This document shows positions 3,250 to 34,015 of a stretch of 35,423 bases of DNA, piece after piece. This DNA comes from Clostridia bacterium (GTDB lineage: Bacteria > Bacillota > Clostridia > Oscillospirales > CAG-272). Where the stretch lies: positions 1 to 35,423 of the forward strand of contig JAFOEU010000026.1 of NCBI GenBank assembly GCA_017387685.1, given 5' to 3'. Within the stretch, counting starts at the first letter, position 1, and every line of letters starts with the position of its first letter. The notes below the pieces were generated by a model. That model was given only the letters and a program-made list of their open reading frames with translations. It had not been told where the DNA came from and did not search any database. The translations under genes and the position numbers were made by a program.

Positions 3250-5487
3250 TCAGACGTCGATTGTGAGCTGCATCTTGGTGATATCCTTTTCAACAAGCAG
3301 CACGGGGGTTGCAGGTATCTTGGTCTTCTTATATCCCTTGGTTGATTCAAATTTATCGGTGAAGTCGCGAAGGACGAGCGAGACTACGGCATCCTTCTTA
3401 AGGAGAAGAAGCTGCGAGCCGGCTGCGGTTCTCGTTGTCTTGAGGGGGATGAGGTTGGTCGAGAGCACGATCGCGCGGTCGGCACTCGTTACGATCAGAA
3501 GCTCGAAGGGATCCTTGTATTCCTCGAAGATTCCTACAATTGGAGATCCGCCGAAATATGCGCCCGTCATCTTGCGGCGCGTGCCCTTGACGGCGTATGC
3601 GGAGAGCGGCACTTTGACGCCCTTTCCGTTTTCAAAGACGAAGACCATATTACGCTTGTCATCCCAATCCTTGTCAAGACGGATGTAAAGCGGCTTTTCG
3701 CCGTCATCGAATTTCAGCTTTGCGGGGAGGAATTCACCCATTTCGCTCGCTTTGCAGGGCGCGATGTCGGATGCCTTGAAGCGGTAGAGCTGTGCCTTGT
3801 CCGTGAAGATTGCAAGCTCGGTGATGTTCTCACCGTCGAATTCGGCGATCAGGCGGTCACCCTCCTTGAATCTCTGCTCATCGTTGCCGCGGAGCGATTT
3901 TTCGGTGATCTTCTTGAAATAACCGTCGGCGGTGAGGAAGAAGTGACAGGGGAAGTTTTCAACGTGTTCCTCGGGACGGTAAACGTCGATCTTTTCCGCG
4001 CTTGTGATAGTCGAGCGGCGGGGCTGGGCGTATTTTTTCTTGACCTCGCCGAGCTGCTTGGCGATAAGACGCTTGAGTTTGATCTCGTCTGCGAGGGTTG
4101 CCTCGAGCTCCTCGATCTCCTTGCGGAGGGAGTCGATCTCGTTGATTCGGTTGATGAGATATTCGCGGTTGAGGTAGCGGAGCTTGATCTCGGCGATGTA
4201 TTCTGCCTGACGCTCGTCGATTGAGAAGCCCGCGCAGAGGTTTTTGATGACCTCGGATTCCTTCTGGGTGTTGCGGATGATCTTGATCGCCTTGTCTATG
4301 TCGAGCAGTATCTTTCCGAGACCGAGGAGGAGGTGGAGCTTATCCTTTTTCTTTTCAAGCTCAAAGGTCAGCTCGCGGGAAAGGCAAGCCTTACGGAAGG
4401 TGATCCACTCGCGGAGAAGCGGGAGGACACCGAGGGTCATAGGCGTCGAGTTGATTATTACGTTGAAGTTGCAGGAGAAATTGTCCTCAAGCGCGGTGGT
4501 CTTGAAGAGCTTGAGCATGATCGCGTCGGGATCAGCGCCCTTTCGGAGGTCGAGGGTGAGCTTGAAGCCCGAGATGTCGATCTCGTCGCGGAAGTCGACT
4601 ACGTCGCGGAGCTGATTGTTTTTCATCATTTCCGCGATCTTCTTCATAATGATCTCGATCGAGGTGGAATACGGGATCTCGAGGATGTCGATGCAGTTGG
4701 CATCCTTGTCGAAGCGGTATTTCGCGCGGATCTTGACGGGACCTTCACCGGTTTCGTAGACTCGCTTCATCGTTTCGCGATCGTAGATGATCTCGCCGCC
4801 GCCGGGGAAGTCGGGTGCGGGCATGATCTCAAGGAGCTCGTCGACCGTCAGTTTTGGGGAACGGAGAAGGGCGATCGTTGCGTCGCAGACCTCTTCAAGG
4901 TTAAAGGAGCAGATTCTCGATGCCATACCGACCGCGATACCCATATTGGGCGTTACGAGGATGTTAGGGAAGGTAGTGGGGAGGAGTGAGGGCTCCTTGG
5001 TGGTGTTATCGTAGTTATCGACCATATCGACGGCGTTTTTGTCGATGCCGACAAAGAGCTCGGTCGCGAATTTTTCAAGGCGGACCTCGGTATAACGCGA
5101 TGCCGAGGGAGCCATATTCGAGCTGTACTGCTTACCGAAAGCACCCTTGGAGTCGATGAAGGGGTGGAGAAGTGCGGCGTTACCCCTTGTCAGACGGACA
5201 AGTGTATCGTAGATTGCGGCATCGCCGTGAGGGTTGAGGCGCATCGTCTGACCGACGACGTTTGCGCTCTTGATTCTCGCGCCCGAGAGCAGACCCATTT
5301 TATACATCGTGTAGAGCAGCTTTCTGTGCGAGGGCTTGAAGCCGTCGATCTCGGGGATCGCACGCGACACGATAACGCTCATAACGTAGGGCATATAGTT
5401 CTTTTCTATCGTTTCAGTTATAGGCTGATCCGTGGCGGGGGCGGGAGGAAGAACCTCAACGACCTCCGCTTTTTTCTTTCTTGCCAT
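3250..5487 (-). CDS. parC: DNA topoisomerase IV subunit A (ParC/GyrA family)
   Basis: This is the DNA-cleaving subunit of a type IIA topoisomerase, 745 residues. Residues about 30-490 are the breakage-reunion core: VMSVIVSRAIPEIDGFKPSHR (about 36-55), NPHGDAAIYD (85-94) and the active-site Tyr132 in SASRYTEVRL. A charged coiled-coil arm lies around 370-490, and a C-terminal beta-pinwheel-like domain fills the rest. I see no canonical GyrA box (QRRGGKG), which favours topo IV over gyrase, and 745 residues is short for GyrA. At the quinolone-critical position (Ser83 of E. coli GyrA, Ser80 of ParC) this protein has Ala90, followed four residues later by Asp94. A ParE partner normally sits next to parC; none is in this window. 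GAGGTAA lies upstream of the ATG. The gene sits between the t6A enzyme and the coiled-coil gene. Confidence 0.88.
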   Translation of the reverse strand: MARKKKAEVVEVLPPAPATDQPITETIEKNYMPYVMSVIVSRAIPEIDGFKPSHRKLLYTMYKMGLLSGARIKSANVVGQTMRLNPHGDAAIYDTLVRLTRGNAALLHPFIDSKGAFGKQYSSNMAPSASRYTEVRLEKFATELFVGIDKNAVDMVDNYDNTTKEPSLLPTTFPNILVTPNMGIAVGMASRICSFNLEEVCDATIALLRSPKLTVDELLEIMPAPDFPGGGEIIYDRETMKRVYETGEGPVKIRAKYRFDKDANCIDILEIPYSTSIEIIMKKIAEMMKNNQLRDVVDFRDEIDISGFKLTLDLRKGADPDAIMLKLFKTTALEDNFSCNFNVIINSTPMTLGVLPLLREWITFRKACLSRELTFELEKKKDKLHLLLGLGKILLDIDKAIKIIRNTQKESEVIKNLCAGFSIDERQAEYIAEIKLRYLNREYLINRINEIDSLRKEIEELEATLADEIKLKRLIAKQLGEVKKKYAQPRRSTITSAEKIDVYRPEEHVENFPCHFFLTADGYFKKITEKSLRGNDEQRFKEGDRLIAEFDGENITELAIFTDKAQLYRFKASDIAPCKASEMGEFLPAKLKFDDGEKPLYIRLDKDWDDKRNMVFVFENGKGVKVPLSAYAVKGTRRKMTGAYFGGSPIVGIFEEYKDPFELLIVTSADRAIVLSTNLIPLKTTRTAAGSQLLLLKKDAVVSLVLRDFTDKFESTKGYKKTKIPATPVLLVEKDITKMQLTIDV

Positions 5488-29967: not shown

Positions 29968-30707
29968 AGCCGTGGCAAACTGCCGTAAGATACGGCGCGA
30001 TAGTGCTTGCGGTCATTCTTATAATCAATATCGTGGGCTGGGGACTTAAAATAGTCGGTGCCGTCCTCGGATTAGCCTCGTCGGGCACTCTCGACGAATC
30101 GAAGGCATACGAATGTGATGCCGATACCGACAAACTTGAAATTGATATTTCCGCGGCAATGCTTATCATCCGCGTTGAAAAATGCGAGAGCATCACGGTC
30201 AAGACCAATCTCAAGGGCGTGAGTGTCAAGGAAAGATCAAATACGCTGAAGATCAACGATAACAAGGGCTTTTTGTCTATACCCGACACCGAGGGCTTCG
30301 TTGAGATAATGATTCCCGAGGGGGCCGTACTGCGCGAGATCGACCTTGATCTCGGCGCGGGCGAAACGCTCTTGTCCGCAATCTGCGCCGATGAGGTCGA
30401 TATCGACGGCGGCGCAGGTGAGTTGCTGTTTACAGATTGTGAAATCTCCGAGCTCGACCTCGATATGGGCGTCGGTGAGCTCGACTTCCGAGGACGTATC
30501 ACGGGTAAAGCCGATATTTCGCTTGGCGTAGGCGTTGCGAAATTTCAGCTCCTCGGCGATAAGGATGAATATAGACTTTCCGTTGACAAGGGGATTGGCA
30601 ACGTCTCGGTTGACGGTCAGGACGTTGGAAGCACCAAGATCGGCAACGGCGGCGTACGCATCAATATCGACGGCGGTGTAGGTGATATTACCATCGACTT
30701 TGAATAA
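29964..30707 (+). CDS. DUF4097/LiaG-like anchored beta-repeat protein
   Basis: A 247-residue protein with one N-terminal membrane segment (about 8-38) and an extracytoplasmic beta-solenoid-like domain. The repeats have a regular pattern of acidic beta strands ending in Gly turns: LDLGAGETLL, DGGAGELLF, LDMGVGELDF, SLGVGVAKF, DKGIGNVSV, DGGVGDITI. This is the DUF4097 (putative adhesin) architecture, which also occurs in LiaG of the Bacillus lia operon. The ATGA overlap with the LiaF-like gene means the pair is coupled. A role in sensing or holding the stressed envelope is inferred from the pairing. Confidence 0.82.
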   Translation: MKPWQTAVRYGAIVLAVILIINIVGWGLKIVGAVLGLASSGTLDESKAYECDADTDKLEIDISAAMLIIRVEKCESITVKTNLKGVSVKERSNTLKINDNKGFLSIPDTEGFVEIMIPEGAVLREIDLDLGAGETLLSAICADEVDIDGGAGELLFTDCEISELDLDMGVGELDFRGRITGKADISLGVGVAKFQLLGDKDEYRLSVDKGIGNVSVDGQDVGSTKIGNGGVRINIDGGVGDITIDFE

Positions 30708-30717
30708 GAGGTTTACA

Positions 30718-32565
30718 ATGAAGAAAAGACTTATATTTATTTCGCTTGCTATGATCATTTCGATCTCTCTGTCGCTCTGTGCTTTCGCGGCGGATGACGG
30801 AGTGATTTCGAAAACCAAGGACGGACTTACCGCCAATATGACGCTTACCGCCGAGAACGAGAACGTCGCGCTCGACGTTGAGCTTATCGGTACAGGCGGC
30901 ACTGACGTTACGAACGTGGCTGTAACACTTACTCTCCCCGAGGGCTTTGAGTGCAACGAGGCTGACGTGACCCGCCCCGTCGATCTTGAGCTTGCGCTGA
31001 ACAATACGCAAACGCTTTCGTATTCGATCGTCAATACTCTCGCGCTTCCCGAGACCGAAGCCTCGATCGAGGTTGTCGAGCCGAGCGGTTGCGGCGCGGT
31101 CATTTCGTCCGCGGCGGTCATTTTCACGCTCATCTGCGCGGTATTCTTCCTTATGAAGAATCCGAAACGCGGCGCGGCTTGTCTGCTTGCTTGTCTGATG
31201 CTCGTTCCGATGGCACTTCCCATCGGCGCGGCAACGACCGAGAGAAAGATCGTGCTTGAGGGTATCGTGTCTTACGAGGAAAAGGAATATCCCATTCTGG
31301 TCACGGTGTCCTACGATTATACCTTTACAGAGCAGAGAGGAACGGATACAAAGGGTATGGAAAAGTTTGAGATCACGTATTATTGGGGTCCGCAGGGTCA
31401 GGACCTTTGCAACGAGGAATACATAAAGAAGATCGCGGAGTGCGGCTTTACGAGCATCCCGATCGAAAGCTGGGAGCCTACGATCAACAAGACCGCGCTC
31501 GAATATCTGTGCAAGTACGGTATGACCTGCTCGGCTCTTGCGGATTACAGAATTCAGAGTGCACTCGCGATCAGCGATCAGACGGCGATCGACGCGTACG
31601 TCAGAGAAGTTGTCGTCGAATATAAGGATTATCTCGACGTTATCAAGGGTTGGCTTCTCAGAGACGAGCCCTCGGCGTCGGATTTCCCCGCGCTTGCGAG
31701 AGTTGTCGATGCCTTCCACCGCATCGACCCCGAGCGAACCACGATGATCAACCTCTTCCCGACCTATGCCAAAGACGAACAGCTCGGAACAAACGGCTAT
31801 CAGGAGCATCTTGATAAGTTCATCTCGATAGTTGATCCCGATTATCTCAGCTACGACCACTATCATTTCCAGAAGAATACTACCCGAAAGGGCTTCTTTG
31901 AGAATATCGAGATTGTTCGCGATACGGCTATTGCAAACGAGATAGATCCGATGCTCATTATCCTTCTGACCGAGCATATGAGCTATGCCGATCTGACGAA
32001 GCATCAGATCGAGTGGGAGGTCAATATGTGCCTGACCTACGGTATGAAACGAATCTCCTACTTCACCTATTGGCTCAGCCAGGATCTCCTCGATCAGGGC
32101 TGGAACGACGCTTGTATGGATTGCACGGGCAAGATATATCCTCACTACTATGACGTTCAGGAGATCAATAAATGGCTTCTGCCGCTCGGAGGTCAGTTGT
32201 TCGATAAGAACTCTACCGCAGTCTTCCATTACAAGATGCGCGGCGGAGCGAGCCTTGAGAAGGGCTGTGAGGCTTATACCTCTTACGGCAACCTTGGCGA
32301 GATCAGCGCGGACGCGGGACTCGTCATCGGCTTCTTCAACGACGAGAGCTTTATGATCACCAATAAAATGTATACGGATACCGAGAATTCGAGAAATACC
32401 GTAGAGTTCCTCGACATTGCATCGGGACTTGAATACTTCGACACGACCACCTCCGAGTGGAAGGATGCCGAAGCTGACGGAACCGTTACAAGAAACGAAA
32501 ACGGCGTGCTGACCTATACCTTTGAGCCCGGAGAGGGAATGTTATTCAGGGTTAAAGGAAAATAA
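30718..32565 (+). CDS. Membrane-tethered glycosidase-like TIM-barrel protein
   Basis: A 615-residue protein. I use the ATG at 30718 (KKRLIFISLAMIISIS), which has AAGAGG upstream and opens a signal peptide; the longer frame from 30682 overlaps the previous gene. Order: signal peptide (1-24), a beta-rich DUF11-like domain (about 25-120), a hydrophobic segment (about 127-146), a basic loop NPKRG, and a second hydrophobic segment ending like a signal-peptidase site (PIGAA, about 168-172). A catalytic-looking domain (about 215-490) follows, with YYWGPQGQDLCNEEYIKKIA, GWLLRDEPSASD (Glu317), LSYDHYHF and ISYFTYW. That region resembles glycoside hydrolase barrels of the GH42-like clan A type, with Glu317 as candidate acid/base. 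A small C-terminal beta domain ends the protein. Substrate unknown. It follows the LiaF/LiaG-like pair by 10 bp, probably in the same operon. Confidence 0.75.
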   Translation: MKKRLIFISLAMIISISLSLCAFAADDGVISKTKDGLTANMTLTAENENVALDVELIGTGGTDVTNVAVTLTLPEGFECNEADVTRPVDLELALNNTQTLSYSIVNTLALPETEASIEVVEPSGCGAVISSAAVIFTLICAVFFLMKNPKRGAACLLACLMLVPMALPIGAATTERKIVLEGIVSYEEKEYPILVTVSYDYTFTEQRGTDTKGMEKFEITYYWGPQGQDLCNEEYIKKIAECGFTSIPIESWEPTINKTALEYLCKYGMTCSALADYRIQSALAISDQTAIDAYVREVVVEYKDYLDVIKGWLLRDEPSASDFPALARVVDAFHRIDPERTTMINLFPTYAKDEQLGTNGYQEHLDKFISIVDPDYLSYDHYHFQKNTTRKGFFENIEIVRDTAIANEIDPMLIILLTEHMSYADLTKHQIEWEVNMCLTYGMKRISYFTYWLSQDLLDQGWNDACMDCTGKIYPHYYDVQEINKWLLPLGGQLFDKNSTAVFHYKMRGGASLEKGCEAYTSYGNLGEISADAGLVIGFFNDESFMITNKMYTDTENSRNTVEFLDIASGLEYFDTTTSEWKDAEADGTVTRNENGVLTYTFEPGEGMLFRVKGK

Positions 32566-32576
32566 AGTTGTTTTTA

Positions 32577-32690
32577 TCCCGCTTCGCGGGAGTGATAATC
32601 TCGCTTCGCGAGAGTGATAATCTCGCTTCGCGAGAGTGATAATTTCCGCAAGCGGAAAGTGAAGGAAGATTTTCGCCGAGGCGAAAATCT
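32577..32690 (+). repeat. Left half of hairpin array 1 (linker GTGATAA)
   Basis: Five hairpins lie in a row. Units at 32577-32598, 32599-32620 and 32621-32642 have an exact 22-bp period: a 6-bp stem, a ttc loop and the linker GTGATAA. Units 1 and 2 differ at exactly two positions, which pair with each other (C-G against T-A). Unit 4 (32643-32658, TTTCCGC/GCGGAAA) keeps the period, and a longer stem (32667-32690, 11 bp, 2-nt loop) closes the half. It starts 11 bp past the glycosidase-like stop codon. Confidence 0.9.
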
Positions 32691-32702
32691 TTAATAAAAC
32701 AA

Positions 32703-32735
32703 TGCCTCATTGATGTACTTGACACCAATGAGGCA
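32703..32735. terminator. Central hairpin of array 1, likely bidirectional terminator
   Basis: TGCCTCATTG (32703-32712) pairs with CAATGAGGCA (32726-32735). Both strands continue with T-rich sequence, so it can end both the glycosidase-like transcript and the convergent S1-protein transcript. It lies at the exact centre of the two inverted hairpin half-arrays. Confidence 0.7.
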
Positions 32736-32779
32736 TGAATTTTAATATTTTTCGAGCAACGCGAGAAAATTACCTTTGT

Positions 32780-32862
32780 TTTGCCCTAAGGGCAAATTAT
32801 CACTCTCGCGAAGCGAGATTATCACTCCGCCGCAGGCGGATTATCACTCGAGCGTAGCGAGA
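32780..32862 (-). repeat. Right half of hairpin array 1 (linker TTATCAC)
   Basis: Hairpins TTTGCCC/GGGCAAA (32780-32796), TCTCGC/GCGAGA (32804-32818), TCCGCC/GGCGGA (32826-32840) and a partly mispaired TCGAGC/GCGAGA (32848-32862) are separated by three exact copies of TTATCAC. That linker is the reverse complement of the left-half linker. Between the second and third hairpins all three changed stem positions are compensated on the other arm. A further imperfect hairpin at about 32748-32769 lies toward the centre. Confidence 0.9.
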
Positions 32863-32877
32863 CAGCACCAACAATAT

Positions 32878-33822
32878 TCAGAACACCGTCTCAATAACCC
32901 TTCCCGCGCATTCGGGCGAATATCTCCATCTGTCCATCCTCGGTACGTTTTCGCAATCGACGAAGTATCGGAGCGGGGCGATCTCGCCGATGTTCTGATG
33001 AGTGTCGATGAGGATGAGCTTGATCTTCATCCGCTCGGGGATGATGCTCTTGATGAAAACTGCGGCGGTGTCGCCGATCTCGATGTCACGCGCGTCGGGG
33101 CGGAGCTCGGCGAGTCCCGCGAGGTTCGGCATAAGCTCTACGAATATGCCGTAGCTCTCTATACTGCGCACAGTGCCCGCTACCGTCTGCCCGGGGGTGA
33201 AGAGTGCCGCGTTTTCTTCCCACGTTCCAAGGAGCTCCTTTTGCGTCAGAAAGAGCCTTCCTGTTTCGCGGTCGACGCTCTTGACCGCCGCCCAGACGAA
33301 ATTGCCGCAGCAAAGTCTGTCGCGCGGGTGCGAAATTCTCGATACCGAAAGTGAATCAACCGGCATCAGTGCGGAGATACCGCATCCGACGTCGGCAAAG
33401 GCGCCGAAGGGCTCGAGGTGTGTGATCTTGACGCGGATGAGATCACCCGCAGCGAGTGTTGAAAGATATTCGCGTATGCAATCGCGCTGAACTATGCGGC
33501 GTGAAAGGTGCACGACGGGCACGCCGCTTTCCTTATCTATACCGATTACGCGAAAACAGACGGGCTTACCGACGCGCGTGATTACGGCAATATCCTTCTG
33601 TACCTCGCCGGGGCGTGAATAAACGCATTCCTCTTTCGGAAGAATACCCATAATTCCTCCGAGATCGAAGTGGAGATTCATCTCGGAGTCGCAGAGAAGA
33701 GCGGTCTCCTCGAGCACCGTTCCGTTTATCATCGCACGCTCGAGACCTGCGAGCGATGAGGTGAATGATCTGTTTTCGGGTGTATGTATAAGCGATCCTT
33801 CGGGTTTATACTTGGGATACAT
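32878..33822 (-). CDS. S1-domain RNA-binding protein
   Basis: A 314-residue protein with S1/OB-fold repeats, as in ribosomal protein S1-like and general RNA-binding proteins of Clostridia. I choose the ATG at 33822 (YPKYKPEGSLIHTPENRSF), 8 nt after AGGAGG; a longer in-frame ATG at 33864 lacks this site. A degenerate S1 repeat spans about 33-107 (NGTVLEETALLCDSEMNLHF ... HLSRR). Repeat 2 is at about 124-196 (GDLIRVKITHLEPFGAFADV ... LFLTQKELLGTWEE). Repeat 3 is at about 211-275 (GQTVAGTVRSIESYGIFVEL). It is shorter than a full S1 (four to six repeats). It may act in mRNA binding or translation, but the exact role is not visible. It is divergent from rplM. Confidence 0.85.
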   Translation of the reverse strand: MYPKYKPEGSLIHTPENRSFTSSLAGLERAMINGTVLEETALLCDSEMNLHFDLGGIMGILPKEECVYSRPGEVQKDIAVITRVGKPVCFRVIGIDKESGVPVVHLSRRIVQRDCIREYLSTLAAGDLIRVKITHLEPFGAFADVGCGISALMPVDSLSVSRISHPRDRLCCGNFVWAAVKSVDRETGRLFLTQKELLGTWEENAALFTPGQTVAGTVRSIESYGIFVELMPNLAGLAELRPDARDIEIGDTAAVFIKSIIPERMKIKLILIDTHQNIGEIAPLRYFVDCENVPRMDRWRYSPECAGRVIETVF

Positions 33823-34015
33823 CGTGTTGACCTCCTGATTTTTCGTGGATTTATTTGATGTCAACGATAATATATTCGTAACAATTCGTTTTTAGAACGA
33901 TAAAAAATATGTGATCGCGCATATTGCTTGAATGAGCTTTTTGGGCAAAAAACGGAGAAAATCAAAGAAAATGGGGTGCTATTTTAAAAAAATATAATTT
34001 TTTTCAAAAAAGGTA

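Follow-up and report, generated by a model that had tools for sequence, protein, structure and literature searches.

A spacer near one end of the window, the 35,423-nt stretch of a Clostridia bacterium genome analysed here, contains two facing arrays of short hairpins. Both are copies of a Gut-1-like intergenic element found across the genome, an element that, in our tentative reading, most likely works as folded DNA. Here, we find that these arrays share an architecture with dozens of other copies in the genome, that their stems covary, that their loops and mismatches distinguish one DNA strand from the other, and that they lie mostly at gene edges and are retained in some of the orthologous spacers. 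Rfam already lists this kind of element as Gut-1, a fact that an earlier note on this DNA missed. As far as our literature search shows, its multi-copy nature at gene edges, its turnover at orthologous sites, and its strand and DNA signature are new.

The spacer extends from the stop codon of the left gene (32563-32565) to the 3' end of the S1-domain gene (32878), and each array within it has an orientation (Table 1). Read from the gene inward, an array consists of hairpins H1, H2 and H3 with GTGATAA between them, an A+T-richer H4, a tail of the RTGAAGGT type, and H5; the hairpins joined by GTGATAA are 15-17 nt long, and the arrays occupy 32577-32691 (left) and 32749-32862 (right). The linker sequence GTGATAAT occurs six times in the window, always within the arrays, compared with 1.06 expected and a maximum of 4 in shuffled sequences.

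Table 1. Features of the array-containing spacer and its adjoining genes, in window coordinates
Feature	Position	Strand	Description
Left gene	30682..32565	+	627-aa ORF; no Pfam match at E 0.001
Left array H1	32577..32591	+	TCCCGC-TTC-GCGGGA; starts 11 nt past left gene stop codon
Left linker 1	32592..32598	+	GTGATAA
Left array H2	32599..32613	+	TCTCGC-TTC-GCGAGA
Left linker 2	32614..32620	+	GTGATAA
Left array H3	32621..32635	+	Same sequence as H2
Left linker 3	32636..32642	+	GTGATAA
Left array H4	32643..32658	+	TTTCCG-CAAG-CGGAAA; innermost unit, A+T-richer
Left inner tail and H5	32659..32691	+	GTGAAGG, then H5 (32666-32691) with arms AAGATTTTCGCC / GGCGAAAATCTT
Central hairpin between facing arrays	32702..32736	.	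Arms 32702-32716 and 32722-32736; centre 32719; terminator-like on the - strand only
Right array tail (H5' and AAAGGT)	32749..32778	-	H5' at 32749-32769, TTTTCGAGC-AAC-GCGAGAAAA on +, with tandem G.A pairs
Right array H4	32780..32796	-	TTTGCCC / GGGCAAA
Right linker	32797..32803	-	TTATCAC on +
Right array H3	32804..32818	-	TCTCGC-GAA-GCGAGA on +
Right linker	32819..32825	-	TTATCAC on +
Right array H2	32826..32840	-	TCCGCC-GCA-GGCGGA on +
Right linker	32841..32847	-	TTATCAC on +
Right array H1	32848..32862	-	TCGAGC-GTA-GCGAGA on +; tandem G.A/A.G and GTA loop on +
Right gene	32878..33864	-	S1 RNA-binding domain, PF00575 (Pfam)

The sequence details of the earlier note, including the positions and sequences of the linkers, all hold on rechecking: left H1 and H2 differ solely at the pair of positions 3 and 13 (C-G to T-A), three compensated pairs and the middle loop base separate the hairpin at 32804 from that at 32826, and the midpoint of the two halves (32719.5) lies next to the centre of the central hairpin (32719). 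Some of its descriptions are modified here. The hairpins were called perfect, yet on the + strand the outermost right one has a G.A next to an A.G pair; the arrays are wider than described, each running on inward through the tail and fifth hairpin; and the central hairpin, described as a terminator, is terminator-like by a simple scan, on the - strand only. Pfam recovers the S1 domain of the right gene and gives no support for a ‘glycosidase-like’ left gene, leaving that identity unconfirmed.

A terminator scan of 32500-32950 listed the central hairpin and H5, both on the - strand, and none of H1-H4 of either array; H1-H4 do not have the hairpin-then-T-run form of an intrinsic terminator. The central hairpin was ruled out as the core of the element because its sequence differs in every orthologue seen, and at its position the orthologues in the related genomes G004 and G003 carry other long hairpins. 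Pairs of linkers (GTGATA, 18 bp, GATAAT) at 32592-32643 and 32796-32847 score as weak sigma-70-like promoters (9/12), two per array and in the direction of the array, compared with 0.3 expected in all in shuffled sequences; these scores belong to the GTGATAA linker type and arise from the linker sequence and its 22-bp spacing.

A genome-wide search for the exact linker-hairpin-linker unit gave 19 forward and 32 reverse copies (51 in all), and a reversed control pattern gave 0 in either orientation, so local duplication of one palindrome, the outcome that would have deflated the earlier note, is not the case. A covariance model likewise gives 51 matches at E<=1e-3. In 15 regions of this genome taken for their arrays (14 fetched regions and the window), we parsed 68 units, 60 with a perfect stem of at least 4 bp and 8 without. 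These regions hold 31 arrays, 16 of which form 8 facing pairs by hand count, and 2 of the 8 pairs enclose an ORF of at least 100 aa. Arrays with a different linker, GTGATGAT, lie at C48:50866, C48:51411 and C35:51072.

Stem differences among the genome copies are compensated. In 21 arrays of the genome, helices 2, 3 and 4 are 98.4, 98.4 and 97.6% paired, and helix 1 is 68.3% paired, a figure lowered by misalignment and by a hybrid hairpin type. Among relatives, 83 loci, mostly better matches, were given to the model, yielding 104 aligned matches; in this alignment, which is fitted to the covariance model and therefore biased towards pairing, 97.3% of 2374 cells are paired and 689 cells are changed on both sides. 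The covariation score of the 104 arrays is 0.709, versus at most 0.091 when the partner is slid and 0.157 in shuffled alignments. Array copies are related, and so these counts are not independent. The covariation in both the genome and its relatives bears out the earlier proposal that the folded shape is kept and the stem sequence is free.

The arrays also occur in relatives, with other linkers. Covariance model R1 matches 21 of 59 genomes, with 51 matches in the window's own genome, 63 in G004, 35 in G003, 34 in G007, 27 in G034, 26 in G006, 20 in G038 and at most 12 in each of the others; the 38 genomes without R1 matches include 8 of the 12 other genomes of the genus. The exact pattern of the window's genome was found in none of those 12, a null result that misleads because relatives carry other linkers, including GTGATAT(T), GTTAAGA(T), ATGGTTA(T), ATGATAA(T), ATGATGA(T) and GTGAAAT. 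The linkers that the earlier note called fixed are thus constant in the window arrays and different between species. Several linker types coexist in a genome and single arrays are nearly uniform: among 86 arrays of four genomes, each with at least two parsed 7-base linkers, mean mismatches number 0.82 within an array, 1.89 between arrays of a genome, and 1.08 between facing arrays of the same spacer less than 450 bp apart. The likeness of facing arrays (permutation p 0.007) is drawn from 8 pairs, a set from which most facing pairs of the window's own genome dropped out. A wider exact-pattern scan of genome contigs gave at least 117 stretches, rejected as chance matches since none of those listed has a stem of at least 5 bp counted from the linkers inward, and an IMG/VR scan with a stricter pattern gave 0 matches.

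Gut-1 was described as a candidate RNA of undetermined function (Weinberg et al. 2010, PMC2864571) and is typed as an sRNA in Rfam. In the open literature, supplements excluded, that paper alone names RF01706, and the phrase ‘Gut-1 RNA’ returned nothing. The arrays share with Gut-1 a row of three or more short covarying hairpins with a constant linker between them; in Gut-1 this linker is of the GUGAAAU/GUGAUAU, or UGA(A/U)AU, type. The window arrays score 28.5 and 22.8 bits against RF01706, below the gathering threshold of 50 (Rfam 15); the best copy in the genome reaches 48.2 bits, and among relatives the loci L166, L176 and L168 exceed the threshold at 58.6, 57.2 and 55.4 bits. Judged by sequence, the window copies are a sub-threshold linker variant of Gut-1. 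They differ from it in their linker GTGATAAT, in their plan of four hairpins, tail and H5, and in belonging to a genome with dozens of copies, mostly at gene edges; moreover, Rfam models a top-strand RNA, whereas the loop and mismatch rules described below point to the bottom strand. In surveys that scored at most 15 candidates per genome, and in which 1 of 14 control genomes (E. coli) matched, below the cut-off, the E<=1e-3 cut-off was passed by RF01706 matches in 49 of the 291 genomes surveyed from the class (above gathering in 32) and in 3 of 299 genomes across the phylum: the window's own, one of its order, and one outside the class.

Like REP, BIME and REPIN sequences, the arrays are extragenic palindromes present in many copies, often in inverted pairs and often just after stop codons, and compensatory changes have been reported in the REPIN spacer hairpin too (PMC3116915). 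REPs are described as having a common consensus motif (PMC12306157), whereas here the linker and loop type are conserved and the stems are not: the 456 hairpins parsed in our array sets A2 and A3 include 110 distinct stems with no common motif, in agreement with the contrast to REP that the earlier note drew. That note also suggested a Y1/RAYT-like transposase as partner. PF01797 has 0 matches in the genome, which is 84.7% complete, and over 59 genomes it matches 9 of 21 with arrays and 17 of 38 without (hand count), so that we reject a RAYT partner on both its absence and its lack of association.

We assessed position for 133 arrays (A2, A3 and 8 added by hand) relative to ORFs of at least 80 codons with a stop or start within 80 nt. 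The outer end lies within 80 nt of a gene edge in 88 arrays, following a same-strand stop codon in 65 (38 within 15 nt) and facing the start of an opposite-strand gene in 23, with neither in 45; the inner end does so in 32 arrays, at a stop in 22 and a start in 10, with neither in 101. Because arrays lie just outside genes, mostly with the outer end toward the gene, we infer a role in marking or buffering transcription-unit ends; the 10 arrays with their inner end at a gene start run against this rule. In other families of the class, a same-strand tRNA ends at most 45 nt before the Gut-1 match in 17 of 30 loci (10 of the 20 returned by the RF01706 class search, and 20 chosen from the genomes G193, G270 and G250), and 17 of the 20 chosen canonical copies start at a junction of a T-run and CAAYGAAAT. 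A tRNA link was rejected for the window's own genus, since in 0 of 14 regions of its genome does a tRNA adjoin an array. Four Gut-1 copies in G193 (L339, L341, L343 and L345) share one terminator-like hairpin (GCATCGACTTTGTCGGTGC) in front of them, and two of the four follow different tRNA genes; terminator and array look as if they had moved together as a unit.

Several features bear on the identity of the folding strand and on whether it folds as DNA or RNA. In the 104 relatives' arrays, helices 2-4 contain 6 G-T and 5 A-C pairs in 1772 cells; over all four helices there are 16 G-T versus 7 A-C pairs in 2374 cells, with the excess confined to helix 1. Terminator-like hairpins of the same regions contain 23 G-T and 4 A-C pairs among 611 in the window's genome and 23 and 16 among 824 in relatives, a control of limited power because G-T exceeds A-C over all array helices and the G-T excess in relatives' terminators is small. 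On the top strand, the A2 and A3 arrays have T-N-C in 292 and G-N-A in 4 of 390 triloops, T-N-N-C in 44 of 61 tetraloops, and a C-G closing pair in 439 of 456 hairpins, all counted by a finder that requires at least four perfect pairs and thus omits mismatched hairpins; terminator-like hairpins have T-N-C in 2 of 32 triloops. A second, linker-based unit set, read on the bottom strand (the strand reading ATTATCAC), gives GNA in 361 of 472 triloops, GNNA in 96 of 131 tetraloops and C-G closing in 569 of 625 hairpins; 176 of its 801 linker-to-linker stretches did not fold, many of which we take to be chance linker matches outside arrays, and we draw no paired fraction from it.

Mismatches follow a similar rule. 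Among 35 hairpins with two adjacent mismatches, 23, from 19 loci, are of the type 5'-GA/3'-AG on the bottom strand, 1 is AG/GA, and 0 are the mirror of GA/AG; this strand claim rests on the linker-based set, as a separate search near arrays counts each hairpin on both strands and covers, in each group, just the six most frequent types. In the window's genome, the hairpin that most often departs from compensation, CTCGC-TTC-GCTCGA, is of the GA/AG type, like the window hairpin at 32848-32862, and the pairs adjoining the tandem mismatch covary (ATCGAGCGAAGCGAGAT, ATCGAACGAAGTGAGAT). In DNA, tandem G.A pairs are stable when flanked as pyrimidine-GA-purine; in RNA, both tandem G.A pairs and G-N-R-A loops form stably as well. 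GNA loops are reported to make extraordinarily stable DNA mini-hairpins (PMC6479982). ViennaRNA, with DNA and RNA parameters, gave no energy difference between top and bottom strands, with the same value in six examples. Taken together, the scarcity of wobble pairs, the loop type, the closing pair and the tandem G.A pairs favour the bottom strand and DNA. The nearest alternative is bottom-strand RNA, which is weakened by the rarity of G-U and by the 36 of 96 bottom-strand G-N-N-A loops that are not GNRA, and helped by the 60 that are.

The same features recall the promoter hairpins of phage N4 virion RNA polymerase, which have a short stem with free positions, a 3-nt loop with 5'G and 3'A, and a C-G closing pair; N4 promoters are reported to need this closing pair and loop, to tolerate changes of non-conserved stem bases that preserve the hairpin, and to extrude at sub-physiological superhelical density with Mg2+ (PMC4496689). 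In our arrays too, C-G closing and G-N-A loops fall on one strand, and stem positions in the 104-array alignment are free as long as they pair. The N4 hairpins are single, whereas ours form arrays on a bacterial chromosome and resemble them in stem, loop and closing pair. We propose that in the cell the bottom strand would fold into mini-hairpins, each closed by a C-G pair and capped by a G-N-A or G-N-N-A loop; these hairpins may extrude from negatively supercoiled DNA or form on DNA made single-stranded in replication or transcription. If only pairing and loop type matter, stems would drift freely as compensated pairs, and the 7-8-nt linkers would stay alike within an array because a putative protein partner reads them single-stranded. 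Arrays might then mark or buffer the ends of transcription units as a supercoil sink, a barrier or a protein loading site. Against this DNA reading, many arrays follow a stop codon and are probably transcribed, so that they may act as RNA.

The 2010 candidate RNA is thus a sequence with many copies per genome in several relatives that obeys rules familiar from DNA folding. Should the DNA reading be true, covariation alone would be no proof of RNA structure, the Rfam strand and type for Gut-1 would need review, and bacteria of the class would have natural extrudable-hairpin arrays at the ends of transcription units, whose role in topology or genome plasticity would be testable on plasmids. More speculative, and doubtful as a whole, is the generalization that Gut-1 is a class-wide DNA element rather than an RNA family: same-strand arrays of extrudable mini-hairpins would mark transcription-unit ends (those of tRNA operons in some families and of protein genes in the window's genus), and a putative factor would read the linkers, with linker and factor drifting together between species.

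The rival that survives best, though we consider it unlikely, is that the arrays act as structured RNA, a transcript whose hairpins alternate with single-stranded UGAUAA-type linkers that bind a protein, or one that protects mRNA 3' ends or stalls ribosomes just past the stop codon in the manner of REPs. The Rfam listing as sRNA, the arrays that follow same-strand stop codons, the GNRA share of the tetraloops, and a report that REPs at most 15 nt from a stop codon lower translation (PMC12306157) are all consistent with it. It fits poorly with the near absence of G-U pairs in helices 2-4 on either strand and with loop and mismatch rules that indicate the strand opposite to the annotated one. 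It also leaves the 23 arrays with their outer end at a gene start antisense to that gene, and canonical Gut-1 copies often come after tRNA genes and their terminator-like hairpins, a place in which one expects little transcription.

To follow single copies between species, we compared eight array sites of the genome (window left, window right, A at C48:67451, B at C48:70661, C at C48:75273, D at C48:76176, E at C48:113011 and F at C48:115614) with G003, G004 and G007, judging orthology by the adjoining gene. An array is present in 13 of 24 cases (6 of 8 in G004, 5 of 8 in G003 and 2 of 8 in G007), and none or only a relic in 11. One hairpin is left at window left in G004; the array is absent or a relic at site B in all three genomes, at sites A and D in G003 and at site F in G007; and a tail relic marks sites C and D in G007. 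Neither window array occurs in G007, where the convergent spacer (L234, G007:C170) holds an insertion of ~3.2 kb and other hairpins beside both genes. Where arrays are present, linkers and most stems differ and the stems are still paired: G003 keeps both window arrays with the linker GTTAAGAT, the right window array of G004 keeps the outermost hairpin and, one place away from its position in the window's genome, one further stem, with all others changed, and site A has three linker types in the window's genome, G004 and G007 at the same place and in the same orientation. At some sites, then, stems and linkers turn over within a lasting architecture, and the 11 cases with no array or a relic, which weigh somewhat against the DNA reading, show that single copies are dispensable. 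At site E in G007 (L256, G007:C96, ~270-520), the array has grown to 13 reverse units with the linker ATGGTTAT, including two hybrid units of two stem types and a last unit with an inverted loop, and is a natural record of unit duplication.

Loss of arrays at some sites and replacement of stems at others would also suit mutational upkeep, in which template switching during replication copies one arm onto the other and maintains a fold without function. Template switching is reported to create and repair perfect stems and to give multi-base compensatory changes (PMC8794818), and the two hybrid hairpins of the 13-unit expansion, with arms of different types, look as if left uncorrected. We nevertheless consider this explanation improbable. 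Template switching is reported to invert spacers too (PMC8604942), whereas T-N-C outnumbers the inverted G-N-A by 292 to 4 triloops, and this constant loop direction makes frequent whole-loop switching unlikely; nor does copying alone explain the constrained loop type, closing pair and tandem G.A pairs. A correction process acting on arms only is possible.

Least probable is a miniature mobile element with ends that fold in single-stranded form for a trans-acting transposase or integrase, in which constant linkers and free stems follow from what the enzyme reads: it would account for dozens of dispersed copies in several genomes, the shared linker type of facing arrays, the common CAAYGAAAT junction behind different tRNA genes in several copies, and a gene at C48:75521-76150 between facing arrays whose matching spacers are shorter in relatives (253 bp in G004, 446 in G003 and 133 in G007, versus 1011 bp), but arrays persist in more than half of the orthologous cases, a Y1 transposase is absent from the genome and unassociated with arrays elsewhere, and the loci inspected, unsystematically, include no clean empty site or target duplication. 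In G003, the place orthologous to C48:75273-76289 (L238, G003:C24, ~4630-4990) contains an inserted segment bounded by inverted ends, CTAGCCGTACGGGAATCGAACC / GGTTCGATTCTCGTACGGCTAG, resembling the 3' end of a tRNA.

Other repeats accompany the arrays. A second hairpin-rich interspersed repeat (GCGGGAAAGTTTT...TTAAGGAAC...GTTCCTTAAG...) occurs at C48:67263-67450 and similar places (L156, L155 and L154), often directly inside the array tail, and on visual comparison of G000 with G004 some of its stems carry paired differences. Between facing arrays at C48:132670-132830 and 142560-142930 (L158) lies a repeat with CTTCCCC..GGGGAAGG and GGATGAGGGGA-like parts, which recurs in the genome.
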